Source: Psychromonas ossibalaenae ATCC BAA-1528 (GTDB lineage: Bacteria > Pseudomonadota > Gammaproteobacteria > Enterobacterales > Psychromonadaceae). Taken from it: DNA of 64,000 nt. The stretch lies in NCBI RefSeq assembly GCF_000381745.1, contig NZ_KB906981.1:17279-81278 (forward strand). The letters are read 5' to 3'. The translations under genes and the position numbers were made by a program. Below the pieces are notes generated by a model. The model did not search any database and was not told the DNA's origin. It saw only the letters and a list, made by a program, of their open reading frames with translations. Numbering within the stretch: position 1 is the first letter of the stretch; each line of letters starts with the position of its first letter. Below are positions 45,160-62,401 of this stretch, piece by piece.

Positions 45160-45197
45160 GCTTTACCTCAAGATACAAAGGGATCTAGAGGTAAAGC
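45160..45197 (+). other. Hairpin B in the leader of the Cache-GGDEF gene
   Basis: Perfect 10-bp arms GCTTTACCTC and GAGGTAAAGC around an 18-base loop, starting at the very next base after hairpin A and ending 26 bases before the ATG, just upstream of the ribosome site. Confidence 0.6.
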
Positions 45198-45223
45198 GGG
45201 TATATAAACCGAAAGGACTGCTT

Positions 45224-46375
45224 ATGGTAAATTCATTAAAATTATCCTCACGAAGTAAGTTTATTATCCTGCATACGTTCACCAGTACAGGGGTTATTCT
45301 TTTTCTACTGTTTTTTTATTACTCTTTTTCCAGCAGCCTTAAACAAGAAAAATATCTCCAGGCGAAGCACCTTACTGAAGCAGGAATCGGTGTGATTCAG
45401 TCTTTTCAGGAGCAGGTTGAACAGGGGGAATTAACCTTAGTGCAGGCGCATATACTTGCTAAAGCAGCTCTAAAGTCAGCGGTATACGGTAAAAATGGTT
45501 ATTTCTGGATCAGTAATACACAAGGGCGACTGTTAATGCACCCTTATCACATTCAAAAAGTTGGCGATAATATGCTCAACTGGACCGATATAAACGGAAA
45601 ATTATTTTTCCGCGACTTGATTGGTGAAGCGATGGCTGGCGGTGGATGGGTTTCATACTACTGGCCAAAACCGAATACAGACGCGGAATACCCGAAAATA
45701 TCTTATGTCGAATACTTTGATGCGTGGGACTGGGTTCTAGGCACCGGCATTTATCTTGATGATATGCAGGAAGAGATCTATTGGGCAATGGTTAAGACCT
45801 CGGGTATTGTTATCGGCAGTTTCTTAGTATTTACTATTGTTATCATTTTAATTGTAAATTATTTTGTCCGCGAGCTCGAAGAGTTGGCAATAAAAGACGG
45901 CTTGACAAACCTATACACCAAAAGATTTTTAAAAGAAATTCTGCCGTCTATTATCAATAAGAATCAACGTGATCAGGAGTGTTTAATGGCGGCAATTTTT
46001 ATGGATATTGATCACTTCAAAAAAGTAAACGATAATTTCGGTCATAGCACTGGTGATAAAGTCTTAAGGAAAATTGCACAAGTTATGGAAAGTAATTCTC
46101 GCTCTGAAGATTTCTGTATCCGATTCGGCGGTGAAGAATTTCTGATTGTTGGTGTGTTTGCCGATGCACAGACAACCATTGATATTGCAGAAAGGATCCG
46201 GACTGATGTTTCACAGCTTCTATTTTCTGCTGAAAAGAAAACATTTCAGGTAACATTAAGTGCCGGAATTGCACTGTATGACAATAAAAGCGAAACCTTT
46301 GACGATACTATAAAACGTGCAGATAAAAAATTGTATGAGTCGAAACAGGCCGGGCGCAATCGTGTTTCAATATAA
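45224..46375 (+). CDS. Cache-domain diguanylate cyclase
   Basis: A predicted membrane-bound sensor making c-di-GMP. TM1 is about residues 14-34. The periplasmic single Cache (sCache_2-like) domain contains GKNGYFWISNTQGRLLMHP and DWVLGTGIYLDDM. TM2 is about 190-212. The C-terminal GGDEF domain has DGLTNLYTKRFL, FMDIDHFKKVND and the active motif GGEEF, with an inhibitory I-site RSED exactly five residues before it, so an active and feedback-inhibited cyclase is likely. I chose ATG 45224 (AAAGGA upstream; 383 residues); upstream codons cover the hairpins and look non-coding. The ligand is unknown; such Cache domains often bind small carboxylates. Confidence 0.88.
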   Translation: MVNSLKLSSRSKFIILHTFTSTGVILFLLFFYYSFSSSLKQEKYLQAKHLTEAGIGVIQSFQEQVEQGELTLVQAHILAKAALKSAVYGKNGYFWISNTQGRLLMHPYHIQKVGDNMLNWTDINGKLFFRDLIGEAMAGGGWVSYYWPKPNTDAEYPKISYVEYFDAWDWVLGTGIYLDDMQEEIYWAMVKTSGIVIGSFLVFTIVIILIVNYFVRELEELAIKDGLTNLYTKRFLKEILPSIINKNQRDQECLMAAIFMDIDHFKKVNDNFGHSTGDKVLRKIAQVMESNSRSEDFCIRFGGEEFLIVGVFADAQTTIDIAERIRTDVSQLLFSAEKKTFQVTLSAGIALYDNKSETFDDTIKRADKKLYESKQAGRNRVSI

Positions 46376-47873: not shown

Positions 47874-48818
47874 ATGATGAACAGACTATTGTTAATCATT
47901 CTGCTTACTGTTTTACCTTTACATTCATCTGCTTCACAAATTCTGCGTGTCGGTTCCACTTTATGGCCTGGATATGAACCTCTGCATTATGCTAATGAGT
48001 TTGGTTTATACCAAAAGAACAGCATCCGCACGATTGATTATCCCTCTGCCAGTGAGGTTTTACGTGCATTCAAAAACCGATCTCTGGAAGCCGCCGCCTT
48101 AACGCTTGATGAAGTTGTTTCATTAAGACGTTTGGGTATTAAAATGAAGATTATTCTTGTCTGTGATGTTTCTGATGGTGCTGATGTGATCCTGTCAGGC
48201 CCGGAAATTAATTCTGTGAAGCAGTTAAAGGCTAAAAGAGTCGCTGTTGAGCCGACAGCGGCTGGGGCCTATCTTTTAAGTCGTGCCCTGCAGATTCATA
48301 ATCTAAAATTAAACGAGATCGAACTCGTAAAAATGGATGTCAGTACAGGTGTTGATGCATTTAATAATGACAAAGCCGATGCCTTTGTAACCTATGAACC
48401 TATGCGTACAAAATTAATGAATCTAGGCCTGACGGAGTTATTTTCCAGTAAAAATATTCCTAATGAAATAGTTGATGTGCTGGTGGTTCATGAAAGCTTA
48501 TACCATAACAACAAACAACAGCTGAATGTATTAATCCAGGGCTGGTTTATGGCGATGCAGGTTTTTCACAACAATCCAGCGAAAGCTTATGATTATGTTT
48601 CATCACGTATGCAGATTACCCCGGCTCAGGTCAAGGCAAGTTACTTCGGCCTGAAATTAGTAAGCCTTACTGAAAACCATAAATTTCTATCTGGTGATGA
48701 TGCAGAGCTGTTTACTACCTGGCAAAAATTAATGGAACATATGAAAAGTACGCGGTTAATCAGTGAGTTCATTGCTGCAGACAGCATCATCACAGGTGAA
48801 TTTCTGCCGGAGAAGTAA
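47874..48818 (+). CDS. NMT1/SsuA-type periplasmic substrate-binding protein (pair 1)
   Basis: A 314-residue exported binding protein. The Sec signal peptide ends about residue 20 (LPLHSSASQ). The mature part begins LRVGSTLWPGYEPLHYANEFGLY, the start of the NMT1/THI5-like or nitrate/sulfonate ABC binding fold; conserved LTLDEVVSLRRLGIKMKII follows. No permease or ATPase gene accompanies it. Its TAA overlaps the ATG of a GGDEF-EAL gene (TAATG), so the two products are made together. A receptor role, presenting a ligand to the membrane enzyme, is inferred by analogy with NspS-MbaA. ATG 47877, immediately after, is equally good by ribosome-site spacing (AAGGA). Confidence 0.85.
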   Translation: MMNRLLLIILLTVLPLHSSASQILRVGSTLWPGYEPLHYANEFGLYQKNSIRTIDYPSASEVLRAFKNRSLEAAALTLDEVVSLRRLGIKMKIILVCDVSDGADVILSGPEINSVKQLKAKRVAVEPTAAGAYLLSRALQIHNLKLNEIELVKMDVSTGVDAFNNDKADAFVTYEPMRTKLMNLGLTELFSSKNIPNEIVDVLVVHESLYHNNKQQLNVLIQGWFMAMQVFHNNPAKAYDYVSSRMQITPAQVKASYFGLKLVSLTENHKFLSGDDAELFTTWQKLMEHMKSTRLISEFIAADSIITGEFLPEK

Positions 48819-51757
48819 TGAGAATTTCAATCCGTAACTTGTTTTCTATTATATTATTCGGCTTAGTCTTTGTGATTACGGTTTTCAGTTATATTATCAG
48901 CCAGGCGAATGTCACTAATGTAATACGTGAAAACATAAATAATGATTTATTAAACGAACTTAACCTGCTTCAGAGTAACTACGAACGCTACATACTGTAT
49001 AACCATCCCGTCGGCATCAATCAGTCCGTTGCTGCAAAAGCGGCTGATGTTAATGTGTTAAAGCTGCTGGTTACCAATCCTAGCGGTATTGTACGAGCAT
49101 CAACAACCCCGCGGGATTTAGAAAAAAACTGGCGGCAGTTAAATTATCAGTTTTCTGAACGTCAGATAACAACAGCGCTGAGCAGTCAGCTTCCCTCAAC
49201 TCAATTTGATCCTGAGCATCGCTGGATTGACGGAGTTGTACCCGTTTGTCAGACCGCGATAGAACTTGGTCTGCGCGGCACGCAATGCGGTTTTGCAGTT
49301 TTACGCCTGGATTATCATTTAAGATTGTCCAGTGCTAATAAGATTTTGATTGAACAGTCTGTCTATCTGTCACTTGGCAGCCTGCTCAGTGCTCTGTTTT
49401 TATTACTAATATCACAGCAATTAATCACCAGGCGAGTGCAGACTATTCTGCACACTTTCAAAAATTGGATTTCCGGCGACCGGCAGTCGAGAATAATTAT
49501 CAAAGGTAACGATGAGCTTTCTGATATTGCCGGCCTGGCAAATAAACTTATTTATAAGTTCGCCCAGGATGAAAATACCCTGCGTAAAAGTACACTTCTT
49601 AATGATGCAATTATCAGCGGCACGAAATATGCCATTATTTCAACTTCGCCGCAGGGCATTATTCAGCTTTTTAACAGTAGTGCTGAACAATTATGGGGCT
49701 GCTCCGCAGAACTGCTGGTTGATCAGCAGAGTTTTCAAAATCTTTTTGACAAAAAACAGCTTAAAATACGTTCTAAAATACTGGCCGAACAACTGCACCG
49801 ACCGGTTAAGGCTGATTTTGAACTATTTTCAGCTAAGCTTGATAACTGCTGCCATTATGAAGCGGAGTGGACAATTGAGAATCCGCAGGCAGGGCTGATA
49901 CCAATACAATTATCTGTCTCACCATTGTTTAATGGGGCAGGTGAAATAGAAGGGTATTTAGCTATTGCTTTTGACGTATCTGAGCAGAAAGAGTCCCGCC
50001 GGCAGTTATACCTAGCTGAGAAAGTATTTAATAATACTAGTGAAGCAATAATGGTTACCGATAAAGAGCTAAATATTATAGATGTCAACCAGGCCTATAC
50101 CGACATAACGGGTTATAGTGCAGAAGATATTAAATCTAAACGGGCAAACTTAAGCAGTTCAGGTCAACATGACGATGAGTTTTTCCGGGATATGTGGGAG
50201 CAGATAAAAGTAACTGGTACATGGAGCGGCGAGATCTGGGACAAGCGAAAAAACGGAGAGTTATTAGCAACATGGTTAACGGTTAACCGGGTATTAGACG
50301 AAGGCGGCAGTATCGTTAATTATGTCGGCTTATTTAAGGATATCACCAAACAGATAACCGACGCGAAAGAACTGCATCAGCTGGCCTATTATGATCAGTT
50401 AACACAATTACCTAATAGAGTGTTGTTCAATGAACGTTTAGGTCGATCCATTCTCGATGCCAAACGAACCAGCTGTAACTGTGCATTATTATTTTTAGAC
50501 TTAGATCGTTTCAAATATGTTAATGATACCTATGGGCATAAAACAGGCGATCAAGTATTAATTGAAGTTGCCAAACGGCTTAAAAGTGTGGTCCGTTCGT
50601 CAGATACCATTGCCCGTCTAGGGGGAGATGAGTTTGTGGTTATTGTTAATGATTTAGAGAAACAGGACGTCCCGCATAAAGTGAATGGTGTTGCCCAGAA
50701 AATTTCTGATGCTGTCAGTCGGGTTTACAATTTCGCAAATCTTAAATGTTATATTGATATTAGTATCGGTGTTGCTGTCTACCCTGATGACGGACAGACA
50801 GTTTCCTGTTTGAGTAAAAATGCAGATACAGCTATGTATAAAGCTAAAAACAGTGCTGATACCGATGTGGTTTTTTTCACCGACCATATGAATAGTGAAA
50901 ATGAACGCCGTATGGAACTCGAAGGTGAATTACGCTGTGCATTAGAAAATAACGAATTGTATCTGCATTATCAGCCGCTGGTAAATATAAAAAACAGAGA
51001 GCTTATTGGATTCGAGGCGCTGCTTCGCTGGCGTAACCCGCTGCTCGGGGATGTTTCACCATTAGACTTTATTACTATTGCTGAGGATATCGGTTTGATT
51101 ATACCGATAGGTAACTGGGTGATGGAAAATGCCTGCAGACAGCTTAGGCATTGGTTAGACGTATATCAGATGCCTCTATCAATGTCGATAAATGTCTCTG
51201 CAAAACAGATTCGATCGAAAAAATTTTTCAGCGAAGTGAAATCACTAATTGATCGCTATCAACTGCCTCATCGCTTTATAAATCTGGAAATAACTGAAAG
51301 TGTATTAATGGAGCAGGATCAGCAGTTAATTGATGAATTAATGCCTTTGTATGAACAGGGTATAAAAATTTCAATTGATGACTTTGGTACAGGTTACTCA
51401 TGTTTAAGTTATCTTAAAAACATCCCCGTCACCACAGTAAAAATTGACCGCTGCTTCATTGCTAATTCATTGAATGATTCTGTTGATTTAGCGATTGTTA
51501 AAGCGATACTATCCATTGCAGACAGTATGTCTTTACAAGTGGTTGCAGAGGGTATTGAGTGTGAAGAACAACATGAGCTTTTACAGGGGCTGCACTGTTT
51601 GTTCGGACAAGGATATTTATATGCAAAACCTCTATCGGTGCAACTAGCTGAAGTGTTTATTTCAAAAAATTCACCTATTATTAATCAACCAGCACTTGTC
51701 CCCCCTGAGCAGGTCGGTAGTGATAGTAATCAATACAACAAGGAGGAAAAATGGTGA
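48818..51757 (+). CDS. Membrane PAS-GGDEF-EAL protein (pair 1)
   Basis: A 979-residue c-di-GMP enzyme. TM1 is about residues 8-28, with a periplasmic domain 30-180 that could dock the binding protein, and TM2 about 181-203. A HAMP-like linker follows, then two PAS domains (about 262-390 and 400-515; the second has VFNNTSEAIMVTDKEL). The GGDEF domain has the active motif GGDEF at 602-606 and an I-site RSSD at 593-596. The EAL domain has EALLRW at 733 and IDDFGTGYSC near 860. Both catalytic domains look intact, so either activity is possible. It overlaps both the upstream binding protein and the downstream DUF6404 gene. Confidence 0.9.
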   Translation: MRISIRNLFSIILFGLVFVITVFSYIISQANVTNVIRENINNDLLNELNLLQSNYERYILYNHPVGINQSVAAKAADVNVLKLLVTNPSGIVRASTTPRDLEKNWRQLNYQFSERQITTALSSQLPSTQFDPEHRWIDGVVPVCQTAIELGLRGTQCGFAVLRLDYHLRLSSANKILIEQSVYLSLGSLLSALFLLLISQQLITRRVQTILHTFKNWISGDRQSRIIIKGNDELSDIAGLANKLIYKFAQDENTLRKSTLLNDAIISGTKYAIISTSPQGIIQLFNSSAEQLWGCSAELLVDQQSFQNLFDKKQLKIRSKILAEQLHRPVKADFELFSAKLDNCCHYEAEWTIENPQAGLIPIQLSVSPLFNGAGEIEGYLAIAFDVSEQKESRRQLYLAEKVFNNTSEAIMVTDKELNIIDVNQAYTDITGYSAEDIKSKRANLSSSGQHDDEFFRDMWEQIKVTGTWSGEIWDKRKNGELLATWLTVNRVLDEGGSIVNYVGLFKDITKQITDAKELHQLAYYDQLTQLPNRVLFNERLGRSILDAKRTSCNCALLFLDLDRFKYVNDTYGHKTGDQVLIEVAKRLKSVVRSSDTIARLGGDEFVVIVNDLEKQDVPHKVNGVAQKISDAVSRVYNFANLKCYIDISIGVAVYPDDGQTVSCLSKNADTAMYKAKNSADTDVVFFTDHMNSENERRMELEGELRCALENNELYLHYQPLVNIKNRELIGFEALLRWRNPLLGDVSPLDFITIAEDIGLIIPIGNWVMENACRQLRHWLDVYQMPLSMSINVSAKQIRSKKFFSEVKSLIDRYQLPHRFINLEITESVLMEQDQQLIDELMPLYEQGIKISIDDFGTGYSCLSYLKNIPVTTVKIDRCFIANSLNDSVDLAIVKAILSIADSMSLQVVAEGIECEEQHELLQGLHCLFGQGYLYAKPLSVQLAEVFISKNSPIINQPALVPPEQVGSDSNQYNKEEKW

Positions 51758-52104
51758 CATTCGAAAGTAAGTTGAATCAGGCACACCAGGAATTGATGCA
51801 GTCTGGGATTTGGAAAACAAATTACAAACCGGTACCTTTAACTTTAATAAGGCGGCTTGGATTTGAAATAAAACCGCCTCATTATCGGCAATTTTTAGTT
51901 AACTTTTTCAGCTATTCTGTAATTTTGAGCTGCCTATGGGGAATAATAATGTGGTTCTTAGTTGGGAGTGAGACTTCTTTAGACCTGTATACTGCTTCTT
52001 TGATAATTATTTGTGCGGGGTTGCTATGTGGTTTTACTATGGCGATATATTACAAATTAAGTGCACGATACCACCATTTATCAAACTGGAAGGACTTTAA
52101 CTAA
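51751..52104 (+). CDS. DUF6404 family small membrane protein
   Basis: A 117-residue protein with a soluble N-terminus (NQAHQELMQSGIWKTNYKP, then RRLGFEIKPPHY) and two hydrophobic helices (about 48-70 and 78-99), a layout I recognise as DUF6404. Its function is unknown. The ATG lies 7 bases inside the end of the GGDEF-EAL gene, with a near-perfect AAGGAGG just upstream, so it is the third gene of this operon. That position suggests, but does not show, a role with the c-di-GMP pair. Confidence 0.7.
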   Translation: MVTFESKLNQAHQELMQSGIWKTNYKPVPLTLIRRLGFEIKPPHYRQFLVNFFSYSVILSCLWGIIMWFLVGSETSLDLYTASLIIICAGLLCGFTMAIYYKLSARYHHLSNWKDFN

Positions 52105-52135
52105 CAGCTTTCCTGGCTGCTGCAGGCTGCTGGCG

Positions 52136-52801
52136 TTACCAGGGTAACTCCTCGCCGCTGCTGTGCCAGAAACTGCCGGAACTAGTCATATTTAACGATT
52201 CGATTAAGGTAAACATGCCTTGGGCCGATTCCTCTGCAGAGATCAGTCCGTTAAATCCAACCATACGGGTTTTAACCCAGCCGGGATGAATGACTGCCGC
52301 CGCAATACCTTGTTCTTTTAAATCCACAGCGAGTGATTTTGTAAAAGCATTTAATGCTGCTTTAGAAGCTCTATATCCATAGCGCCCACCTGAATCATTA
52401 TCAGCTATGGAGCCCATACGGCTGGTGATATTTATGATCTTGCCGCCTTTTGAGAGGCAGGGTAACAGCTTTTCACTGACCATTAACGGTGCATAAGCAT
52501 TAATTTCCATCTGCCGGCGCAGGCTGTCTATCTCAATTGAACCTAAAACATCATCTTGTAATAACCCGGCGTTATTAATTAATACATCTACTTTAACTTT
52601 TTGTAACTGCTGATAGACACGATCCAGATCTGCCTGACAGGTAAAATCAATACCGCAGATAAGGCGGTCTGCTGTTTCTTTTATCTCTTCACTTTCACTA
52701 CGGCACAGTGCAATAACCTGATAACCGTTTTTCTTGAATAGTGCCGCTAGTGCTAAACCGATACCACGGTTAGCACCGGTGATTAATAATGTTTTTGACA
52801 T
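52136..52801 (-). CDS. Short-chain dehydrogenase/reductase
   Basis: A 221-residue SDR. NAD(P) motif TGANRGIGLALA at the N-terminus, NNAGLL near residue 90, the active-site Ser in ITSRMGS, and YGYRASKAALNAF with catalytic Tyr and Lys. C-terminal HPGWVKTRM is typical of C-factor/YciK-like SDRs. The substrate is unknown. It is convergent with the DUF6404 gene and divergent from the ABC transporter. Confidence 0.85.
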   Translation of the reverse strand: MSKTLLITGANRGIGLALAALFKKNGYQVIALCRSESEEIKETADRLICGIDFTCQADLDRVYQQLQKVKVDVLINNAGLLQDDVLGSIEIDSLRRQMEINAYAPLMVSEKLLPCLSKGGKIINITSRMGSIADNDSGGRYGYRASKAALNAFTKSLAVDLKEQGIAAAVIHPGWVKTRMVGFNGLISAEESAQGMFTLIESLNMTSSGSFWHSSGEELPW

Positions 52802-52998
52802 AAATTCCTCGCTAATAAAAACACATAATAGGTATAAGATATAACTTTTTGTTATGCCTTACATAGAATAGCTTCATATATACTACGCTAAAATAAGTAC
52901 CGGAAATATAGTCATCAGCTTCTAAATTACCCGCCTTGTGCAACAGATATTTTACAGCCGTTTCGCTATACCATTATCAATAATAAACAGGATTTCTC

Positions 52999-53757
52999 AT
53001 GAACAAACAGTTTCAATTAATACTTGCAGTCGTGGTTGCAGTTACAACTCTTTTCACAGTCCCTGCATTTGCATCACAGACAGTTAAAGTCGGCATGTCA
53101 GGGCGATACTTCCCATTCACCTTTTCACAGCGCGATGTTCTGCAGGGGTTTGAAGTCGATGTCTGGAATGAAATCGCGGAACGGGCAGATTATAAAGTTG
53201 AATTTGTAACATCTAGCTTTTCAGGTTTATTCGGCATGCTTGAAGCCGGTCATATTGATACTATCTCCAATCAGGTAACTATTACCCCGGCACGCCTGGA
53301 AAAATATGTATTCTCTGTACCTTATGTTGTTGACGGCGCGCAGATCGTGGTTAAAAAAGGCCGTACAGATATACAGTCTGTAGATGATTTAAAAGGCAAA
53401 AAAGTAGGTGTTAATCTCGGCAGTAATTTTGAACAGATTCTGCGTGCATTGGATACAGAAAATGAAATTAATATCGTTACTTATGATTCGGGTTTTGAAC
53501 AGGACGTAGTATTAGGGCGTACCGATGCGTTTGTGATGGATCGTGTATCAACAGGCCAGTTAATTAAGAAATCAGGTCTGCCGCTGCAGCAGGCAGGTGC
53601 ACCTTTCCAAAAGATTGAAAATGCTATGCCGTTTTTAAATACTGCCCCGCAGACTGCCATCCGCGATAAAGTAAATGAAACGCTTCTGAGTATGCGTAAT
53701 GACGGTAAATTAGCTGAAATATCTGTTAAATGGTTCAACACTGATATCACTAAATAA
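52999..53757 (+). CDS. Polar amino-acid ABC transporter, substrate-binding protein
   Basis: A 252-residue periplasmic binding protein (SBP_bac_3 family). The signal peptide ends TVPAFA-S at about residue 25. The mature sequence has FPFTFSQRDVLQGFEVDVW and SGLFGMLEAGHIDTISNQVT, the general amino-acid/cystine binding fold. The specific ligand cannot be read. It is first in a three-gene operon with its permease (33-bp gap) and ATPase. Unlike the NMT1-type proteins on either side, this one has its own transporter genes. Confidence 0.9.
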   Translation: MNKQFQLILAVVVAVTTLFTVPAFASQTVKVGMSGRYFPFTFSQRDVLQGFEVDVWNEIAERADYKVEFVTSSFSGLFGMLEAGHIDTISNQVTITPARLEKYVFSVPYVVDGAQIVVKKGRTDIQSVDDLKGKKVGVNLGSNFEQILRALDTENEINIVTYDSGFEQDVVLGRTDAFVMDRVSTGQLIKKSGLPLQQAGAPFQKIENAMPFLNTAPQTAIRDKVNETLLSMRNDGKLAEISVKWFNTDITK

Positions 53758-53790
53758 TACCTTACAAAATTCCAGAGCGAGTCATTTTCA

Positions 53791-54462
53791 ATGCAGATCT
53801 CTTTAGATGTTCAATATATTGCAGAGTTACTGCCAATATTATTCAAATACCTGGGTGTAACGATGGAAATGGCCCTCTGGGGCTTTTTCTTCGCATTAAT
53901 TCTTGCCGTAGTTTTAGCTGTAGTAAAGGTATTCAAAGTACCCTTAGTACATCATGCTGCAAGTTTATTTATTTCGTTTTTCCGGGGCACACCGCTCCTG
54001 GTACAGCTGTTTTTATTATATTACGGCTTACCGCATTACATTCCTGCATTAGCCGGGATGGATGCCTTTACTGCTGCCGTTATTGGCTTATCACTGCATT
54101 TTGCCGCTTATATGGCAGAAAGTATTCGTGCCGCTATTCTAGGCATAGATAAAAGCCAGATGGAGGCTTGTTTAAGTATCGGCATGACCAGACTGCAGGC
54201 AATGTATCGTATCATACTGCCGCAGGCATCCCGCGTTGCAACTCCTTCTCTGATGAATTACTTTATCGATATGATTAAAAGTACTTCTTTAGCTTTTACA
54301 TTAGGGGTGGCTGAAATTATGGCTAAAGCGCAGATGGAAGCGGCTTCCAGCTTCAAGTTTTTCGAGAGCTTTCTAGCTGTTGCGCTTATTTACTGGGCTG
54401 TTGTTGTATTCTTTACCCGCATCCAGCATATTATTGAAACCCGTCTTAATAAGGCTTATTAA
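53791..54462 (+). CDS. Polar amino-acid ABC transporter, permease
   Basis: A 223-residue inner-membrane subunit of the HisM/GlnP family with about five helices. The family signature [18 protein letters not shown] is near residue 65, and the EAA loop reads [20 protein letters not shown], contacting the ATPase. It may act as a homodimer, as only one permease gene is present. The TAATG overlap joins it to the ATPase gene. Confidence 0.92.
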
Positions 54463-55229
54463 TGATTACAGTACAAAACCTGAGTAAAAACTTCGCTCAG
54501 AATCAGGTATTAAAAGATATCAGTTTTGAAGTGGAGGTTGGTCAGATAGTGGTTATTATCGGTCCGTCTGGTACTGGTAAGTCTACTTTATTACGTTGCT
54601 TAAATTATCTGGAATCACCTACATCCGGCTCCATTGAGATAGGCACCGCTAAAGTTGATGCCGGGACAGCAACCAATAAGCAGATCAGCAGTCTGCGTAA
54701 GCAAAGTAGTTTTGTATTTCAAAATTATTCATTATTTGCTAATAAAAATGCGCTTCAGAATGTGGCAGAAAGCCTGATTACGGTATGGAAAGAACCGAAA
54801 AACAGCGCTCTGGCTCATGCTCAGACTATTCTGAAGCAGGTTGGTCTGGCCGACAAAGCTGACCAGTATCCGTCTCAGCTGTCCGGCGGTCAGCAGCAGC
54901 GTGTCGGCATTGCTCGTGCAATGGCATCAAAAGGTGAGGTAATTTTGTTTGATGAGCCGACATCTGCACTGGATCCTGAATGGGTTGAAGAGGTATTAGT
55001 GGTGATGAAAGAACTTGCCCGTCAGAAACAGACTATGATTGTAGTCACCCATGAAATGCAGTTTGCAAAAGAGGCTGCTGATAAGGTTATCTTTATGGAA
55101 GGTGGTCATATAGTTGAGATGGGGACACCAAAGCAGATATTTGATAACCCTCAGCATCATCGCACAAAAGCGTTTGTGGCACGTGCAGCTAAAAATGCAG
55201 TTACATCATTTGATTCAAGTATGCTGTAG
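54462..55229 (+). CDS. Polar amino-acid ABC transporter, ATP-binding protein
   Basis: A 255-residue ATPase of the GlnQ/HisP type. Walker [10 protein letters not shown] near residue 35, Q-loop in FVFQNYSLF, signature [15 protein letters not shown], Walker [17 protein letters not shown], and the switch His in VVTHEMQFA. It completes the operon and is followed by a bidirectional hairpin terminator. Confidence 0.93.
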
Positions 55230-55299
55230 AACTATTTTATTCGTCTCAGATGCATACTCTACGAATATTGCTCATGCAGTATTACGATATGCGTATAAA

Positions 55300-55333
55300 A
55301 AAAGGCTTTTTAACAATGTTAAAAGGCCTTTTC
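55300..55333. terminator. Bidirectional terminator between the ABC operon and ppiC
   Basis: AAAAGGCTTTTTAAC pairs with GTTAAAAGGCCTTTT (15 bp, one G-U) with a 3-base loop. A-runs and T-runs on both sides suit the convergent genes. Confidence 0.75.
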
Positions 55334-55347
55334 AGCAAAAACAATTA

Positions 55348-55629
55348 TTAATCGTTACGGCTTGTAACTTCTAATAAGTGATAGCCGAACTGTGTTTTAA
55401 CTGGACCCTGAACAATACCAACGGGTGCACTAAAAACAACTTTATCAAATTCAGGAACCATCATACCAGGTCCGAACTCTCCTAGATCGCCGCCGCTTTC
55501 ACGTGAAGGGCAGCTGGAGTTTTTGCCTGCAACTGCAGAGAAATCAGCACCAGCTTCAATTTCTTTCTTAAGTTCAAGACAAAGTTCTTCTGATTTTACT
55601 AAAATATGACGGGCACTTGCTAAAGCCAT
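55348..55629 (-). CDS. ppiC: Peptidyl-prolyl cis-trans isomerase C (parvulin)
   Basis: A 93-residue single parvulin domain without signal peptide, hence cytoplasmic, as E. coli PpiC (also 93). Motifs: ARHILVKSEELCLEL, GGDLGEFGPGMMVPEFDKVVF and TQFGYHLLEV, containing the catalytic His and Phe/Met pocket residues. AAAGGA precedes the ATG. Divergent from htpX. Confidence 0.93.
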   Translation of the reverse strand: MALASARHILVKSEELCLELKKEIEAGADFSAVAGKNSSCPSRESGGDLGEFGPGMMVPEFDKVVFSAPVGIVQGPVKTQFGYHLLEVTSRND

Positions 55630-55730
55630 TTTATTTTCCTTTAATTTGTGTTTAATAGGTCACGATAAATTAATTTCAATAATGAATCAATCCGTAAATG
55701 AACTGTAATATAATTTATTTTCATATATTA

Positions 55731-55756
55731 CTTGAAATATTATCCAAAGGCCATAT
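55731..55756 (+). promoter_or_regulatory. Sigma-32 (heat-shock)-like promoter of htpX
   Basis: CTTGAAA is a perfect sigma-32 -35 element, followed after 13 bases by CCATAT, resembling the CCCCAT-type -10. It lies 37 bp before the htpX ATG. htpX belongs to the heat-shock regulon in E. coli. Confidence 0.55.
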
Positions 55757-55792
55757 TATGTCTATTAACAATCTATTTACTTTGAGGTAACA

Positions 55793-56665
55793 ATGAAACG
55801 CATCGCGCTATTTTTAATCACCAACTTAGCTGTCATTTTAGTACTAGGGATTGTACTGAATCTTGTTTTTGCTTTTACTGGCGTAGACTCGCGCAGTACA
55901 GGCGGTTTATTAATTTTAGCGGTAGTATTCGGTTTCGGCGGTTCATTTATCTCGCTGGCAATGTCTAAATGGATTGCCAAACGCAGTACAGGTGCTGTTG
56001 TTATTGAACAGCCAAGTAGTGAAACAGAGCACTGGCTGGTTAATACTGTTAAGGCTCAAGCGGCTAAAGCAGGTATTGAATGCCCGGAAGTCGCAATTTA
56101 TGATGCACCGGATATGAACGCATTTGCTACCGGCATGAATAAAAACAAAGCACTGGTTGCAGTGAGCAGCGGACTGCTGCACAGCATGACCCGCGATGAA
56201 GCTGAGGCTGTTTTAGCCCATGAAGTGAGTCATGTTGCCAGCGGTGATATGGTGACTCTGGCGTTGATTCAAGGTGTAGTTAATACCTTTGTTATCTTTA
56301 TTGCCCGTGTACTGGGCGGTATTATCGACAGTGCAATGAGCAGTAACGATGAAGAAGAGTCATCAGGTCATGGTTTCTCTTACTTTATTATTGTTTTTAT
56401 TCTGGAAATGATCTTCGGTGTGCTGGCAAGTACCATTGTGATGTACTACTCACGTCAGCGAGAGTTTGGTGCAGATTCAGGTGCAGCTAAATTAGTCGGT
56501 AAAGAGAAAATGATTGCCGCACTGCAGCGTTTGCAAAAGGGTGCAGAGCCAAATTTAGAAGGCAGCATGATGGCGTTTGGTATTTCAGGTAAACGAAGCG
56601 GTGGATTATTTATGTCTCATCCGCCAATCGAAAAACGTATCGAAGCGCTACAAGCTATCAGTTAG
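55793..56665 (+). CDS. htpX: Protease HtpX (M48)
   Basis: Inner-membrane zinc metalloprotease that helps FtsH in membrane-protein quality control. Two N-terminal helices (about 5-27 and 37-58) are followed by the cytoplasmic catalytic domain with HEVSH at 143-147 (E. coli 139-143) and the third ligand Glu in [10 protein letters not shown]. Two further hydrophobic helices lie at about 156-176 and 195-215. The 290 residues fit. A repeat element begins just after the stop codon. Confidence 0.95.
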
Positions 56666-56668
56666 TTT

Positions 56669-57064
56669 TATACCCGTTATCATTCAAGATGCAAAAATCA
56701 GCAAGTCGTAAGGTGAGCAGATTCTAGGCGTGAAGGTGAAGATCTAACGGGTTAAATCGAGATTTAACAACGAATTGTTAAATGCTTGCATTTAATCAAT
56801 GTCGATAGAGGAATCACGAAGTGAATCGCTCGAAAGACAACGAAGATGTTTGCCTCACGGCTTGTCCCATTGGTCGCTAGCTCGAAAACCAATACTGCGT
56901 TGCAACATTCGATAAGCACTAACCATTTAAGGATTAAAGTCTTTATTTTAATCCTACCGACAGAGGATTAACGAAGTTAATCGCTCGAAAGGTCATCATG
57001 TCGCGCCTTGTCTTGGTGTCCGAGCTAACGACTGATAAATGCATTTTGATTGGTAACGGGTATA
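56669..57064. mobile_element. MITE-like non-coding element with terminal inverted repeats
   Basis: A 396-bp segment without any credible ORF. The ends (TATACCCGTTATCATTCAAG... at 56669-56693 and the complement at 57040-57064) match at 22 of 25 positions. The outermost TA on each side could be a target duplication, giving a core 56671-57062. Inside, a 29-bp block at 56808-56836 recurs at 56963-56991 (26/29) with small hairpins TCAC-GAA-GTGA and TAAC-GAA-GTTA that show compensating changes. It contains no transposase. It fills most of the 535-bp gap between htpX and the next gene. Confidence 0.7.
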
Positions 57065-57083
57065 TTTAACTCGCAAAATCATT

Positions 57084-57120
57084 AAAAAACAGTTATTTTC
57101 CCGAAAATAGCTGTTTTTTT
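57084..57120 (+). terminator. Terminator downstream of the repeat element (probably of htpX)
   Basis: AAAAACAG..ATTTTC-CC-GAAAAT..CTGTTTTTTT: a long, nearly perfect stem with a T-run. As the repeat element lies between it and the htpX stop, it was probably the htpX terminator before insertion. Confidence 0.75.
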
Positions 57121-57200
57121 ATCAAAAACTTTCTGTCATGATCCTAAACTCTATGTTTATGAAATCAATTATTGATTTTTATTCTCTATTTGGATCTTCT

Positions 57201-58178
57201 ATGAAACTGCTTGTCTCCTTGGCTAAACGTTCAGTTTGTCTTGTTTTATTAACCTCATTTTTATTCAGTTGTCAGCCCTATAAGCAGCCTTTAACTGTTG
57301 CCGCCGCTCCCTGGCCGAATTATGAATTCCTGTTTTTAGCAAAGCAGCTGAATTATCTCAATCCTGAGCATTTTTCCTTATTTGAATTACCGTCTTCAAC
57401 CAGCGTGACTCAAGCATTTCAGACCGGTAAACTTGATGTGGCTTTTTTATCACTTGATGAAGTCTTAACGCTGGTTGCACTGGGTATTGACCTTAAAATA
57501 ATCTCTGTCATTGATCAGTCCGTCGGAGCTGATTCATTATTAGCTAAACCAGAAATTAAAAAACTTAGCGACTTAAAATGGCGTTCCATTGGATATGAAA
57601 ATAAGGCCGCCGGTGCATTATTATTAGATGAAATGATGTCACTTTCTGGACTGAATAATCAAACAATTCAATTGTATGAAGTGAAACAAAATGAAGTAAA
57701 AGATGCCTATATGCAGGGTAATATTGACGCACTTATTGTCAGAGAACCGCAGAAACAGCAGCTGCTTGAGCTTGGCGCAGTTGAATTACTTAACTCAAGT
57801 ATTTTAGAACAGCGTATCACCCATTTAATTGTTGCCAGAGAAGATAGTTTTTACGCAAAAGAAGAACAGATAACGGAGCTGCTGAAACGTTTTTATCGGG
57901 CCCAGGAGTATTACCTGGAAAATCCTAAAGATGCACTGACAACTATGTCTGTCAGACTGCAGGTTTACCCCTATTTATTAGAAAAATCCTTTGCCGGCAC
58001 CCTGTTTATTGAACCTCGAGACGCTTTAATGCGTTTATCCGGCTCTCCTTCGAACATCGAACTACAAGCTAATCAGTTAAGTAAATTTATGACAGCTAAG
58101 AACATGCTCGGGAAAATTCCATCTGATTTTAATAGTCTTATTTCAACGAGAATACTGGAGCGAGTTATTTATGAATAA
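57201..58178 (+). CDS. NMT1/SsuA-type binding lipoprotein (pair 2)
   Basis: About 325 residues. Start at ATG 57201 (GGA six bases upstream) gives a lipoprotein signal: basic MKLLVSLAKRS, hydrophobic VCLVLLTSFLF and lipobox LFSC (Cys about 25). The mature part APWPNYEFLFLAKQLNYL and LSLDEVLTLVALGIDLKII parallels the pair 1 binding protein (WPGYEPL...; LTLDEVVSLRRLGIKMKII), so they are distant paralogues. There is no transporter gene. The stop codon overlaps the start of a GGDEF-EAL gene by 8 bases. An earlier ATG at 57138 is possible but would put an odd extension before the signal peptide. Confidence 0.85.
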   Translation: MKLLVSLAKRSVCLVLLTSFLFSCQPYKQPLTVAAAPWPNYEFLFLAKQLNYLNPEHFSLFELPSSTSVTQAFQTGKLDVAFLSLDEVLTLVALGIDLKIISVIDQSVGADSLLAKPEIKKLSDLKWRSIGYENKAAGALLLDEMMSLSGLNNQTIQLYEVKQNEVKDAYMQGNIDALIVREPQKQQLLELGAVELLNSSILEQRITHLIVAREDSFYAKEEQITELLKRFYRAQEYYLENPKDALTTMSVRLQVYPYLLEKSFAGTLFIEPRDALMRLSGSPSNIELQANQLSKFMTAKNMLGKIPSDFNSLISTRILERVIYE

Positions 58179-60681
58179 TGTTAATAAGCTGTCGCTGCGC
58201 GTTATCATCCCGGCAATTCTCTTTGCAATTTTTGTTCTGTTGCAGGGGTTTGTATTTTACCTCGAATATCAGCAGGCACAAAAACGTCTTTATATTGAAA
58301 AAGAGCACTATATTAAAGGTATTGCCGGTAATCTGCAGACCACCTTATCCAATACATTAATGCGTTTAGAAAAAGCTCAGGCACAGCATATAGTATCCGA
58401 AACTGCGTTGGATCAGAACTTTAAAACCATCGCCATTGTTGACCATAATCAGCAGATTATTTTAAGTAACGATTTACGTAAAAAATATATGTTTTCTAAA
58501 CTGCAGCTTGAACAATATGACGGTAGTCTTCTGCCGCAGGTTATTGAGAAAAATGAGTTCATTTTTCAGTATAATAGTAGTACTCAAGATTTAATTGTTT
58601 ATGCACCGCTGCAGATGCTGTCAAAAGGCAACAGTTTAAACCGTAAATATAACGGTCTTATCTTCATTCGCTATTCGCTAACCAGTGCAATAAAGTCGCT
58701 CCAGTATAATGCCCTTATTTCTTTGATTAAAATATCAACTACCTTGCTGGTAACGCTGTTTCTGCTTATTTATTTCTTAAATCGAATTATTATCAAACCG
58801 CTGAATCAACTGGCACTTTCTACTAATATTTCTGATTTAAGTAATAAGATAGAGGTTGATCAGAGTGGTATTGGTGAAGTGGGTCTTTTACAAAACTCCT
58901 TTGCGAAACTGGCAAACGAAGTAAAAAACAATATAAACCGTTTATCTGCAAGTGAGCAGCGCTGGTTATATGCGCTGAGCGGTGCACGCGATGGTGTATG
59001 GGACTGGAATATATCCGATGATAACGTCTATTATTCAACCCGCTGGAAGGAGATGCTCGGATATGACAAAACTGATATCGGTACTGATATTGATGAATGG
59101 GAGTCACGTATTCACCCGGAGGATCTGTTTACCGTACTGCAGGATCTGCGCTTTCACTTTACCGGACGTAACTCTTTCTTTGAAAATACGCACAGGGTAC
59201 GTTGTTTAAATGGCGAATACCGCTGGATATTAAGCCGCGGCCAGACTGTATCCTGGGATGCTGACGGGCAGCCGTTACGGGTAATTGGTACTAATACCGA
59301 TGTCAGTGTTTATAAAGAGTCACAGGAAAAAATTAAACAACAGGTGCAGTTTGATGAAATCACCCAGCTGCCGAACCGGAGTCAGTTATTAGTACATCTT
59401 GCTCAGGAAGCCGCCCGTGCCCAGCATAATGAGCTGCATGGTGCCGTTATATTTATTGAGTGCAACCAGTACAAAACAATCAATGATCTACAGGGACACT
59501 TTAAAGGTGACGAGCTTCTGTATTTAATCGCCCGACGTTTAGAAGAATTAAAGTCCGGGCCTGATTTTATCGCTCATCTGCAGGGCAGTGAGTTTGTTGC
59601 TGTACTGCCGGATCTGCATAAAGACAGTGAACATGCTGCGGAAATGGCATTAGAGTTTGCACAGCATCTGGACAAAAAGTTAAAAGAGGCCTTCAGCATT
59701 GACTCTGAAGATGTTGTACTGTCCTGTGTATTTGGTATTGAATTGTTTCCTGCTGTAGACTCTGATGCAAATGACCTGCTCCGTCAGTCCGCTATGGCAA
59801 TGAAAAATGCTAAAAACAATGTGTTAAGTAATATTAGTTTCTTCGCCAAAGAAATTGAACATAAAATACTAGCCCGCCATAACCTCCAAAAACAGATTCA
59901 TTTAGGTTTGGAAAACCAGGAATTTACATTGTACTTTCAGCCGCGTATTGATGCACATGGTCAGTTAATCGGTGCAGAGGCGTTAACCCGCTGGTTACAT
60001 GGTGCACAGGGCTGGGTGAACGCAGCTGATTTTATTCCCGTAGCCGAAGACTGCGGTTTAATACTGCCTTTGGGAGACTGGGTAATTAAAAGTGCATTTG
60101 AGCAGTTTGCTCAATGGCAGAAACTTGGTTTACCGGAATCATTTACAACATTATCGCTTAATGTCAGCCCTAAACAGCTGCTGCAGACTACCTTTGTACG
60201 CTCAATTGAACGTTACCTGGAAGAGACGCAAATAGACCCTAGATTTATCGAAATTGAAATAACGGAAAATATTCTGGTCGGACATATGGATTTAGTGATA
60301 GATAAACTTAATAAACTGCGTGATTTAGGTTTACGTTTTGCGATTGACGATTTTGGAACAGGTTACTCTTCGTTCTCATATTTAAGTGTACTTCCTGTTT
60401 CTACTTTAAAAATCGATCAGTCTTTCATTGTAAATTTAATGCAGGACGAGAACCAAAAAGTGATTGTAAATGCGATCATCAGTATGGCGCATGCACTGAA
60501 GCTTGATGTTGTTGCTGAAGGTATTGAGTCACAGGAACAGTTAACATTTTTAACAACATGCGGCTGTACTCAGTTTCAAGGGTATTATATCGGCACGCCG
60601 TTAGCTAAAAAAGACTTTCAAACCCTGTTATTCAAAGGCCATAAAACAGCACTCAACAGCAGTAAAAAAGAGTTGAAATAA
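58171..60681 (+). CDS. Membrane PAS-GGDEF(degenerate)-EAL protein (pair 2)
   Basis: An 836-residue protein. TM1 is about residues 9-30, a periplasmic domain covers 32-177, and TM2 about 180-205, followed by a HAMP-like segment. One PAS_3-type domain (about 265-385; GARDGVWDWNISDDNVYYS) follows. The GGDEF domain is degenerate: the active motif reads QGSEF (471-475), and the metal-binding region is IECNQYKTIND instead of DxDxFKxxND. The EAL domain looks intact: EALTRW at 603, then AIDDFGTGYSS. It is likely a c-di-GMP phosphodiesterase, perhaps with GTP binding in the ruined GGDEF as regulation. It overlaps the binding lipoprotein gene and is followed by tamA after 7 bases. Confidence 0.9.
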   Translation: MNNVNKLSLRVIIPAILFAIFVLLQGFVFYLEYQQAQKRLYIEKEHYIKGIAGNLQTTLSNTLMRLEKAQAQHIVSETALDQNFKTIAIVDHNQQIILSNDLRKKYMFSKLQLEQYDGSLLPQVIEKNEFIFQYNSSTQDLIVYAPLQMLSKGNSLNRKYNGLIFIRYSLTSAIKSLQYNALISLIKISTTLLVTLFLLIYFLNRIIIKPLNQLALSTNISDLSNKIEVDQSGIGEVGLLQNSFAKLANEVKNNINRLSASEQRWLYALSGARDGVWDWNISDDNVYYSTRWKEMLGYDKTDIGTDIDEWESRIHPEDLFTVLQDLRFHFTGRNSFFENTHRVRCLNGEYRWILSRGQTVSWDADGQPLRVIGTNTDVSVYKESQEKIKQQVQFDEITQLPNRSQLLVHLAQEAARAQHNELHGAVIFIECNQYKTINDLQGHFKGDELLYLIARRLEELKSGPDFIAHLQGSEFVAVLPDLHKDSEHAAEMALEFAQHLDKKLKEAFSIDSEDVVLSCVFGIELFPAVDSDANDLLRQSAMAMKNAKNNVLSNISFFAKEIEHKILARHNLQKQIHLGLENQEFTLYFQPRIDAHGQLIGAEALTRWLHGAQGWVNAADFIPVAEDCGLILPLGDWVIKSAFEQFAQWQKLGLPESFTTLSLNVSPKQLLQTTFVRSIERYLEETQIDPRFIEIEITENILVGHMDLVIDKLNKLRDLGLRFAIDDFGTGYSSFSYLSVLPVSTLKIDQSFIVNLMQDENQKVIVNAIISMAHALKLDVVAEGIESQEQLTFLTTCGCTQFQGYYIGTPLAKKDFQTLLFKGHKTALNSSKKELK

Positions 60682-60688
60682 TAACTTA

Positions 60689-62401
60689 ATGAAAATAATA
60701 AAATTCTGTTTTTTAATAATAGTTACTTTTTTTCATGGGGCTTTAGCGGCTGAGGTGGCTTTTAAAGTCAACGGGACCAATGATAAAGCCCGTGAAAATA
60801 TTGAAATCCATCTGAAAGGGCTAAGTCAGCCTAAAAATGCCGACAGTGCCGGTTATTTACAGCAGGTTGAAGACTCTACTCGAGAAGCCCTGAATGCATT
60901 AGGTTATTACCAGATAAGCATGCAGATTAAGGTGACCGCTAAGGATCAAGAGCAGCTGGTCACGCTGAATATTGAACCCGGTGTATCTAGTGAAATTACC
61001 AACCTGAGCGTTAAAATAACCGGGCAAGGAAAAAACGATTTTGAGTTTAAAAAAGTATTAGATGATTTTGCAGTTAAACTGCATGATAAACTGCATCATG
61101 GTAATTATGAAACAGCCAAAGACAGCCTGAGAAGTATCGCCCAGCGACGTGGTTATTTTGACGCTAAATTTGACAAAGCTGCTGTTGAAGTTACTTCAAA
61201 AAACAACACTGCAGCCGTTTATCTGTGGTTCAATACCGGACCGCGCTATCAGTTTGGAGAGCTAGTTTTTACAGATGAAATCGCAGCTGAACAATATATT
61301 CGCACTTTGGTAAACTTTAAAGTCGGTGATCCCTTTGACTCGAGAATTTTAAGCCAGTTTAATGTTGATCTCAATGAAACAAATTATTTTAAAACAATTA
61401 CAATCCTGCCGGCTGTTAAAGATAAACAGGGGCTGCTCATTCCATTACATGTTATGGCCAAAATGCAGCCGCAGGACTCTTTTAATGTAGGGGCTGGTTT
61501 TAGTACCGATGAAGGTGTGAGAGGGAAGTTTCGCTGGGTGAGACCCTGGCTAAACGAAGACGGGCATTCCATCGAAGGCAATGTGGTTGCCTCTGCTCCC
61601 AAGCAGGAAACCTCTCTTACATACTCAATCCCGCTGGAAGACCCTCTGTATAATTACTTTTCCATACAAAGTGGTTATAAACATGTAGATCAGAATGATA
61701 CTGTCACGCATCAATATCTAGTTGGTTTAAATCGTCACTGGCGGTTATCTAACAACTGGCGGCAGACTGCGTTTATAAGATATGATCATGAAAACGGTAT
61801 ACAGGGGCAGGAAAGTTATTCAACAGATCTGATCCTGCCAGGGGTTAGTTTCAGTAACAGCCGCAGTAGAGGCGGTATAAATGTTGACTGGGGAAGTAAA
61901 CATATGTTTTCATTTGAAGTATCAAATGAATGGTGGTTATCGAGCTCAGACTTAGTGAAAGTTTACGGAAATTCAAAATTTATCCGCACTTATAATGAAC
62001 ACCAGTTTGTTGCTTCTGCTGAACTTGGCGCGATATATGCTGACTCTATTAATGACGTACCGTCTTCAATGCGTTTCTTTACCGGCGGGGATCAGAGTAT
62101 ACGTGGTTATGATTACGAAAAAGTTGCCCCGAGAAATGACAGCGGCTTGTTGATCGGCGGGCGTTACCTGACCGTCGGCAGTCTTGAATACCGTATGCCG
62201 GTAGTCCAAGACTGGAAGGCTGCGCTGTTTGTTGATGCAGGTACTGCAACTAATGATTATTCTGAAGAGATATCAGTAGGAACGGGAGTCGGTGCAGTGT
62301 GGGCTTCACCGGTTGGTCCGATTCGTCTGTATATTGCTAAGCCGCTTACAGATACTGAAAATTCTTTTACATTCCACTTTATGATCGGCCCTGAATTATG
62401 A
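60689..62401 (+). CDS. tamA: Translocation and assembly module TamA (Omp85 family)
   Basis: Outer-membrane barrel protein that works with TamB in autotransporter/outer-membrane protein assembly and phospholipid transport. The signal peptide ends HGALA-A at about residue 20. POTRA domains occupy about 22-270 (NALGYYQ, QRRGYFDAKFD). The C-terminal 16-strand barrel has the lid motif TGGDQSIRGYDYEKVAPR and ends in the OMP-like FHFMIGPEL. 570 residues, similar to E. coli (577). The TGA overlaps tamB by four bases (ATGA). It starts 7 bases after the GGDEF-EAL gene. Confidence 0.93.
   Translation: MKIIKFCFLIIVTFFHGALAAEVAFKVNGTNDKARENIEIHLKGLSQPKNADSAGYLQQVEDSTREALNALGYYQISMQIKVTAKDQEQLVTLNIEPGVSSEITNLSVKITGQGKNDFEFKKVLDDFAVKLHDKLHHGNYETAKDSLRSIAQRRGYFDAKFDKAAVEVTSKNNTAAVYLWFNTGPRYQFGELVFTDEIAAEQYIRTLVNFKVGDPFDSRILSQFNVDLNETNYFKTITILPAVKDKQGLLIPLHVMAKMQPQDSFNVGAGFSTDEGVRGKFRWVRPWLNEDGHSIEGNVVASAPKQETSLTYSIPLEDPLYNYFSIQSGYKHVDQNDTVTHQYLVGLNRHWRLSNNWRQTAFIRYDHENGIQGQESYSTDLILPGVSFSNSRSRGGINVDWGSKHMFSFEVSNEWWLSSSDLVKVYGNSKFIRTYNEHQFVASAELGAIYADSINDVPSSMRFFTGGDQSIRGYDYEKVAPRNDSGLLIGGRYLTVGSLEYRMPVVQDWKAALFVDAGTATNDYSEEISVGTGVGAVWASPVGPIRLYIAKPLTDTENSFTFHFMIGPEL

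Follow-up and report, generated by a model that had tools for sequence, protein, structure and literature searches.

In the 64,000-nucleotide stretch of the Psychromonas ossibalaenae ATCC BAA-1528 genome analyzed here (contig NZ_KB906981.1, positions 17,279 to 81,278; referred to as the window), two modules, A and B, were identified in which the gene for a periplasmic solute-binding protein (SBP) of the NMT1 type overlaps the gene for a membrane enzyme of cyclic di-GMP (c-di-GMP) metabolism. Each module probably forms a two-protein transmembrane receptor composed of the SBP and its co-encoded c-di-GMP enzyme. In the mechanism that we infer, the NMT1-fold SBP (lipid anchored in module B) would capture a small ligand in the periplasm and dock on a Cache-like domain of approximately 150 residues in the enzyme, and the resulting change would be relayed via the second transmembrane (TM) helix, HAMP, and PAS to GGDEF-EAL, shifting c-di-GMP. 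In module A this would be a shift between making and breaking c-di-GMP, and in module B the gating of an EAL phosphodiesterase alone. The SBP and the Cache-like sensor would together be the evolving unit, with the outputs (GGDEF-EAL, GGDEF, or histidine kinase) exchanged. The module parts, with open reading frames (ORFs) and start codons called mechanically, are as follows.

47874-48818, + strand: SBP A, NMT1_2-type periplasmic SBP, 314 amino acids (Pfam NMT1_2, E of 1.7e-16)
48818-51757, + strand: enzyme A, TM - putative Cache-like sensor - TM - PAS - PAS - GGDEF - EAL, 979 amino acids
48899-49357, + strand: periplasmic sensor of enzyme A, approximately residues 28-180 (iterated profile, hhalign)
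57201-58178 (likely; ORF from 57138), + strand: SBP B, NMT1-type, predicted lipoprotein (NMT1, E of 1.2e-15)
58171-60681, + strand: enzyme B, TM - putative Cache-like sensor - TM - PAS - degenerate GGDEF - EAL, 836 amino acids
58258-58713, + strand: periplasmic, putative Cache-like sensor of enzyme B, approximately residues 30-181

Two SBP-enzyme modules with common motifs had been proposed in a first-pass annotation of the window, and these were borne out by the ORFs, the domains, and BLASTP. Both quoted motifs are present in both SBPs, WPxYExL as WPGYEPL in A and WPNYEFL in B, and LDEVxxLxxLGIxxKII as LDEVVSLRRLGIKMKII and LDEVLTLVALGIDLKII, respectively; the two proteins share 29% identity (138 bits by BLASTP), far beyond chance. 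Only the NMT1 and NMT1_2 models of Pfam matched SBPs A and B, with no PotD-like match. The binding proteins had also been described as fused to the enzymes by overlap. The overlaps exist, of 1 nt in module A (TAATG at 48816-48820) and 8 nt in module B (58171-58178), but the genes are separate; GGAG lies within the 3' end of each SBP gene. No SBP-specific permease or ATPase genes adjoin SBP A or SBP B, and the proposed coupling of transporter-free NMT1-type SBPs to c-di-GMP enzymes is supported by sequence.

Against a profile of the SBP family, of which both are rows, SBP A scored 432 bits and SBP B 512 bits. For SBP B, ATG 57201 is probably the start rather than 57138, and the protein read from 57201 carries a lipoprotein-like signal with LFSC at its end. 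The Cys that predicts a lipoprotein is thus read in SBP B and is absent from SBP A, which is the sole exception among 43 aligned family SBPs (lipobox Cys in 42).

An EAL phosphodiesterase is recognized by the signature residues EAL, N, ExTE, DDFGTG, K, EG, and QG, all of which are present in enzymes A and B. Enzyme A also has the GGDEF signature of an active diguanylate cyclase, as RLGGDEF, and an RSSD I-site (RxxD); enzyme B has HLQGSEF, with QGSEF in place of GGDEF, and lacks that signature. These motifs agree with the earlier suggestion that one enzyme could make and break c-di-GMP and the other only break it.

Partner genes and a common sensor

Related SBPs were collected with a profile built from signalling SBPs, and the sample leans toward such SBPs because of this. 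Matches were obtained in 60 of 295 genomes of the order (E of 1e-20) and in 49 of 369 genomes of a class sample (E of 1e-38). The tally covers fetched loci only, comprising 40 of the 57 listed places outside the host genome plus others picked by score; SBP A of the window is counted and SBP B is not. Partners hidden by spurious or overlong ORFs (L130, L131, L137, L185, and L218) were assigned by hand, and four kinase partners were named from Pfam.

At a score of 150 bits or above there are 85 SBPs, of which 77 directly precede a gene with GGDEF/EAL or kinase domains, and none precedes an ABC permease gene. The 77 partners comprise 47 full GGDEF-EAL proteins, 19 histidine kinases, seven GGDEF proteins, two proteins with a degenerate GGDEF only, one GGDEF-EAL protein cut by a contig end, and one EAL protein with a degenerate GGDEF. 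Overlap with the partner gene was found for 64 of the 77 SBPs, in 56 of these by at most 20 nt (from mechanical ORF starts). Another five of the 85 are followed by a receptor gene that is shortened (L049 and L195), split (L124), or cut off (L063 and L189). The nine SBPs at 110 to 150 bits precede an ABC permease (n = 4), a kinase (n = 3), a GGDEF-EAL protein (n = 1), or another gene (n = 1), and 15 of 25 SBPs below 110 bits precede an ABC permease. In the SBP tree, all 12 ABC-coupled rows fall outside an 81-row clade that holds the signalling SBPs, apart from a third host module described below (SH-aLRT of 86). Output labels placed on this tree require 17 changes, and the starred branches alone force at least six for the kinase label. 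Judged by the encoded domains, the modules are part of a wider receptor family whose members combine one sensing front end with a variety of signalling outputs.

Several family members have unusual partners. The B enzyme at L124:3857-6367 (G095, family f10) is divided between two ORFs, one covering the sensor and the other GGDEF-EAL. At L128:3727-6414 the GGDEF partner has a phosphonate-binding SBP domain of its own at the N terminus, in addition to the NMT1 SBP encoded separately, with a similar layout at L129 and L130, and the kinase partners at L183:6911-10051 and L125:2725-6618 end in a hemerythrin domain after a receiver domain.

Most partners have two predicted TM helices approximately 150 residues apart regardless of output, with a loop of 152 to 153 residues in both window enzymes. 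One iterated profile matched 68 of 82 partner N termini, among them those of enzyme A (E of 4e-58) and enzyme B (E of 1e-79), both of which are members of that profile. An un-iterated profile of the B loops, without TM and HAMP, matched 26 of 44 other loops (E of 2e-15 to 2e-5), six in the B clade and 20 outside it, and the latter carry kinase, GGDEF, and GGDEF-EAL outputs. This profile matched none of 22 control N termini, thereby missing L185 and L218, which are true partners. By hhalign, the A loops aligned with a mixed partner group at 98.6% and with the kinase group at 91.9%, and the B loops with the kinase group at 99.3%. Pfam gave no significant domain in the sensor stretch of either window enzyme, and the best Pfam E value over 43 sensor loops was 0.0008. 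In a single-sequence AlphaFold model (pLDDT of 68), the enzyme B sensor starts with a long helix and continues as a five-stranded sheet. Using Foldseek, this model gave three matches below an E of 0.001, all to WalK (1.4e-5 for the full WalK model and 9e-4 for the crystal domain); the sequence profile also lists the WalK family, at an insignificant E of 0.5 to 0.8. The modeled fold suggests that the sensor is a Cache-like domain of approximately 150 residues that has no Pfam model. A structure model of SBP B (pLDDT of 50) was too poor and was set aside.

When the co-evolution of binding proteins and enzymes suggested in the first-pass annotation was checked, SBP and sensor distances were found to covary across 33 nonredundant pairs, the 43 rows minus 10 (rho of 0.45, 0 of 2,000 permutations), and likewise with all 43 rows (rho of 0.42, 0 of 2,000). 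Within 13 GGDEF-EAL pairs, SBP and sensor were correlated (rho of 0.41, 4 of 2,000), whereas no correlation was found between SBP and EAL (rho of 0.05, 719 of 2,000) or between sensor and EAL (rho of 0.14, 371 of 2,000). The nearest neighbor by SBP and by sensor was the same for 17 of the 33 pairs, with outputs differing in some; for module A, the nearest relative outside the genus is by both measures L186, whose output is GGDEF alone. As the SBP tracks the sensor and not EAL, SBP and sensor look like one unit with an exchanged output.

The host genome contains eight NMT1 matches. Four of these resemble TAXI-type SBPs and lie next to large TRAP-like genes (from ORF reading only), and the remaining four all directly precede c-di-GMP genes, none of them lying beside an SsuC-type permease gene. 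In addition to A and B there is a third module (L069:6713-11145), an NMT1 SBP with a 1,132-residue GGDEF-EAL partner, and a fourth (L088:6214-8563), an SBP whose GGDEF partner, of 437 residues, is encoded 31 nt downstream. Because the third-module SBP groups with ABC-coupled SBPs in the tree, on a long branch and with modest support (85), SBP-c-di-GMP coupling may have arisen more than once. With at least four such modules in the host, and with family members that also precede histidine kinases, the earlier view of A and B as a paired system is not supported. EAL matches in the host genome number 27, of which 26 are above the cut-off. Just beyond the window end (L089:8836-11253), a TAXI-like SBP gene and a shorter near-copy lie by a large TRAP-like gene.

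Origin of the modules and receptors without catalysis

Modules A and B lie on one strand, with approximately 5.4 kb from the end of enzyme A to the start of SBP B, and an SDR gene, an amino-acid ABC transporter, and htpX between them. The neighboring features are as follows.

45050-46375, + strand: sCache_2-GGDEF gene with its own sensor, TTG start (likely start ATG 45224), considered a bystander
52136-52801, - strand: SDR gene
52999-55229, + strand: amino-acid ABC transporter (SBP_bac_3, cystine-like) that includes its own SBP, considered a bystander
55793-56665, + strand: htpX, conserved neighbor upstream of module B
60689-62401, + strand: tamA, conserved neighbor downstream of module B

The sCache_2-GGDEF ORF, for which the domain scan began at 45212 (not a start codon), corresponds to the Cache-GGDEF gene earlier noticed near 45.2 kb. 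No Rfam hits were obtained within 42000-64000. Promoter-like sites were about as frequent as in shuffles (38 versus 35.1, standard deviation [SD] of 6.5), and terminator-like sites, mostly intragenic, exceeded them (20 versus 10.6, SD of 2.7).

SBP B was found (E < 1e-50) in 17 of 23 other genomes of the genus, or 18 of 24 including the host. The order htpX-SBP-enzyme-tamA occurs in 16 of these 18, the host included; G017 lacks an adjoining htpX, and the G001 contig stops short of tamA. Furthermore, bioF, bioC, and bioD together with htpX are present in each of the 10 B loci from family f10 and in three of four from family f12, so that an arrangement of bio genes, htpX, SBP, and enzyme looks ancestral. 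Among 40 relatives, a true ortholog of SBP A (86%) was found only in G023, taken as P. aquimarina. Among the loci seen, only the host and G023 have module A between bioD and htpX, along with the Cache-GGDEF gene and the amino-acid transporter, which argues for insertion of this block beside an older B locus.

In the SBP tree, A lies outside the B group. A recent tandem duplication, which would place A inside the Psychromonas B group, was rejected (approximately unbiased [AU] test, P of 0.00015), and A as the sister of the whole B family is compatible with the topology tests (P of 0.168, and P of 0.635 in another test, in which the joined tree was 8.2 log-likelihood units better). The AU-test tree, from which the values of 0.00015 and 0.168 derive, comprised 42 chosen rows. 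Nine near-duplicate B rows (L046-L048, L052, L053, L058, L120, L151, and L152), five ABC rows (L073-L077), and rows below 75 bits were left out of the SBP tree. The sequences thus mark A and B as ancient paralogues that evolved separately, and a paired system flanking a transporter, as first proposed, is not supported, since among the loci seen module A and the transporter occur together only here and in P. aquimarina. The amino-acid transporter was likewise rejected as a component, as it comes with an SBP of its own and was seen in this position only in the host and G023.

The GGDEF motif of the B enzyme is altered in all 17 Psychromonas enzymes in which the domain was seen, the host enzyme included; the motif in the B homologues is GGDEF in G032 and PGDEF in G034. 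In G015 and G018 the B protein ends after the degenerate GGDEF with EAL gone, and in G010 it is shortened and ends after PAS (L057:9868-11583, L056:6885-8591, and L049:9861-11054; EAL is lost in each, and GGDEF also in L049). No relocated B EAL was found in G010, G015, or G018, the best EAL matching at 41 to 44% compared with 76% in G008. Comparison of G015 with G018 gave dN/dS values of 0.043 for the SBP (NG86), 0.047 for the sensor (YN00), and 0.038 for PAS (NG86), each from the one usable estimator for that region and with dS near saturation. The dN of the GGDEF remnant was 0.232, about three times higher than the approximately 0.07 found elsewhere. These estimates indicate strong purifying selection on the SBP, sensor, and PAS in G015 and G018. 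Between window enzyme B and that of G023, dN/dS was approximately 0.06 to 0.08. The shortened G010 receptor evolves faster and may be decaying. The empty B receptors either act through partners or are maintained for some reason that did not emerge here. In the kinase branch, a 500-residue partner at L195:4386-5888 ends after HAMP-PAS and has no kinase domain, and the next gene is on the opposite strand.

Ligand candidates and competing explanations

The SBPs were aligned with TauA, and its residue numbers were transferred to the PDB chain with an offset chosen to match the residue types. In the accessible part of the TauA work, Gln30 holds the sulfonate and no taurine binding was measured without Glu106 (PMC6906117). 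The Glu106 position is an invariant Asp in all 43 aligned SBPs, and the Gln30 position, reached by extrapolation just outside the aligned stretch, is Trp in 41. Sulfonates, put forward in the first-pass annotation, therefore look unlikely as ligands. At the position of Asp205, an Asp is present in 30 of 32 non-B rows, including A, whereas each of the 11 B-clade rows has His, Asn, Arg, or Tyr there, SBP B itself having His. Cleft residues S128, G130, and D132 are invariant (43 of 43), D132 being numbered in SBP B from the 57138 start. The residues at these TauA pocket positions favor an amine-like cation, and different ligands in A and B.

A further lead came from ABC-coupled relatives. Seventeen of 19 such SBP loci were scanned for RNA families, and 12 had a guanidine-I riboswitch (L067, L071-L075, L077, and L143-L147), most with guanidine-II as well; it was absent from L135, L136, L139, L141, and L149. 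By family search, L071 and L075 also hold urea carboxylase and urea amidolyase-associated genes, and the available text of PMC12186494 reinterprets carboxylases of this kind as guanidine carboxylases. The pocket motif D-x-S-x-G-x-D with I-x-D is common to the guanidine-linked ABC SBPs, SBP A, and most receptor-family SBPs. The lead is weakened by the lack of a guanidine riboswitch in all 11 receptor loci scanned, and it is weaker still for this strain because the host genome (G000) has no guanidine-I or -II riboswitch. Nor is the motif specific to guanidine, as L135, L136, and L139 show D-x-S-x-x-x-D and ABC genes with no such riboswitch; L135 and L136 are the best-scoring ABC-coupled SBPs and the nearest by score to the receptors. 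The riboswitches and motif in these relatives are a ligand lead only, and on these sequences guanidine itself is a doubtful candidate. A wider proposal, tentative and in our view rather unlikely, is that these are modular envelope receptors of the Gammaproteobacteria, in which an NMT1-fold lipoprotein and a Cache-like sensor would sense a small cation (guanidine or a guanidino or amine relative, with a different ligand in the B branch) and would feed into c-di-GMP enzymes or histidine kinases; some Psychromonas receptors would be left without any catalytic activity and would still signal via partner proteins.

Several observations weigh against the two-protein receptor. Three of the 85 SBPs have no partner (L197, L211, and L213), with no sensor match in any ORF there, and 14 of 82 partners did not match the shared sensor profile, their loop being longer or none being found. 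With TM and HAMP included, the iterated profile gave matches to five of 22 control N termini as well; two of these proved to be true partners (L185 and L218), and the other three did not (E of 2e-12, 5e-6, and 3e-5). The un-iterated B profile left 18 of 44 nonseed loops unmatched, window A included. Direct hhalign comparison of A with B gave no match (0.16%, from only two close A sequences); the evidence for a sensor common to A and B comes from the wider profile, which contains both. The sensor was modeled with modest confidence and its TM-scores to WalK are low (0.34 to 0.55), 13 pairs is a small number for comparing SBP, sensor, and EAL, and correlated distances are no proof of contact because adjacent genes are inherited together. 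Finally, the loss of both B catalytic signatures in three Psychromonas genomes is left unexplained by a plain enzyme role.

It may also be that the Psychromonas B receptor now acts mainly without catalysis of its own, through contacts of its PAS or dead GGDEF with other c-di-GMP enzymes, by analogy with degenerate receptors of the LapD type. That account, which is compatible with the two-protein receptor, would fit the altered GGDEF in 17 of 17 B enzymes, the low dN/dS of SBP, sensor, and PAS in G015 and G018 despite the missing EAL and the roughly threefold higher dN of the GGDEF remnant, the lack of a relocated EAL (41% at best versus 76% in G008), and the kinase-branch L195, which likewise ends after HAMP-PAS. 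It is set against a complete EAL signature under constraint in window enzyme B (dN/dS of approximately 0.06 to 0.08 versus G023), a G010 receptor that evolves faster and may be decaying, and a near-saturated dS with one estimator each for G015-G018; on balance we think it unlikely.

Two other explanations are less probable still. Module B might watch the cell envelope, its lipoprotein SBP reporting lipoprotein or outer-membrane traffic with ligand binding secondary, as the htpX-SBP-enzyme-tamA order (16 of 18 Psychromonas genomes with SBP B), the presence of htpX in other B loci (10 of 10 in f10 and three of four in f12), and the SBP Cys (42 of 43) could suggest. None of 40 class-wide loci (L182-L221) holds htpX, tamA, or bioFCD, however, with the Cys and the partner kept there, and the cleft is invariant (S128, G130, and D132 in 43 of 43), leaving this quite improbable. 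As for the SBPs serving ABC importers encoded elsewhere, with the gene overlap only coupling expression, all 43 aligned SBPs do match SsuA_fam and ABC_peri_uca, but the window SBPs score below the curated cut-offs (93.7 and 95.6 bits versus 163.5 for SsuA_fam; 84.4 and 39.7 bits versus 333.9 for ABC_peri_uca). The adjacency of all four non-TAXI host SBPs to c-di-GMP genes and of none to an SsuC-type permease gene, the covariation of the SBP with the sensor and not with EAL, and the absence of ABC coupling among the 85 SBPs make such a role very improbable.

Relation to known systems

Histidine kinases gated by an SBP include LuxP-LuxQ and TorT-TorS, and in Vibrio parahaemolyticus the SBP ScrB controls the GGDEF-EAL enzyme ScrC in a ScrA-dependent signal circuit. 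No ScrA-like gene was recognized beside module A or B. The accessible text of PMC9602780 cites the ScrB-ScrC work as an SBP example and describes BctC-BctE, a histidine kinase gated by the TctC-type SBP BctC. In such systems the binding protein docks on the kinase sensor, a plan that the kinase-output relatives found here fit. The kinase systems BctC-BctE, LuxP-LuxQ, and TorT-TorS use other SBP families. The best fold match of the enzyme B sensor is the extracellular Cache domain of WalK, which shares approximately 15% identity with it and comes from another organism group with another output. Guanidine importer SBPs (NCBIfam TIGR03427, ABC_peri_uca) have the NMT1 fold and pocket motifs in common with the receptor SBPs; they adjoin ABC permease genes, mostly under guanidine-I riboswitches, which the 11 scanned receptor loci lack.

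The closest likeness is to NspS-MbaA of Vibrio cholerae and Sinorhizobium meliloti, in which the SBP gene overlaps a downstream gene for a TM-periplasmic domain-TM-GGDEF-EAL protein. As reported in the accessible parts of the sources, the gating of a GGDEF-EAL enzyme by an SBP is a published principle (PMC8967002, PMC9993111, and PMC9602780), and in NspS-MbaA the occupancy of the SBP decides between c-di-GMP synthesis and breakdown (PMC8967002 and PMC9993111). The same layout, an SBP gene directly upstream of and overlapping that of a GGDEF-EAL membrane protein and without transporter genes of its own, was found for A and B. As NspS-MbaA works on the same principle, the label of an undescribed system was too strong; overall, the initial observation was confirmed and its interpretation partly supported. 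The systems differ in that NspS is a PotD-like polyamine SBP and the window SBPs have the NMT1 fold. The periplasmic part of S. meliloti MbaA spans residues 24-256 (approximately 230), compared with 152 to 153 residues here, and the cytoplasmic domains named for it in the available text are only HAMP, cyclase, and phosphodiesterase (PMC9993111); the window enzymes have PAS domains. Unlike NspS-MbaA, module B has no GGDEF signature and the family has relatives with kinase output.

No description of this NMT1-type receptor family was found in the literature, with subscription papers largely outside the search. According to the accessible portion of a 2022 review, only 1 of 27 families of the periplasmic-binding-protein clan has been studied in c-di-GMP networks (PMC8846402). 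To this field the family would supply a recognizable input module, a defined protein pair testable for binding, and a pocket-based ligand shortlist, and its members, with outputs that have in nature been swapped, degenerated, or emptied of catalysis, raise the question of what such receptors do without enzyme activity. The working principle is that already known from NspS-MbaA; what is new is the type of SBP, the shared sensor, and the swapping of outputs.

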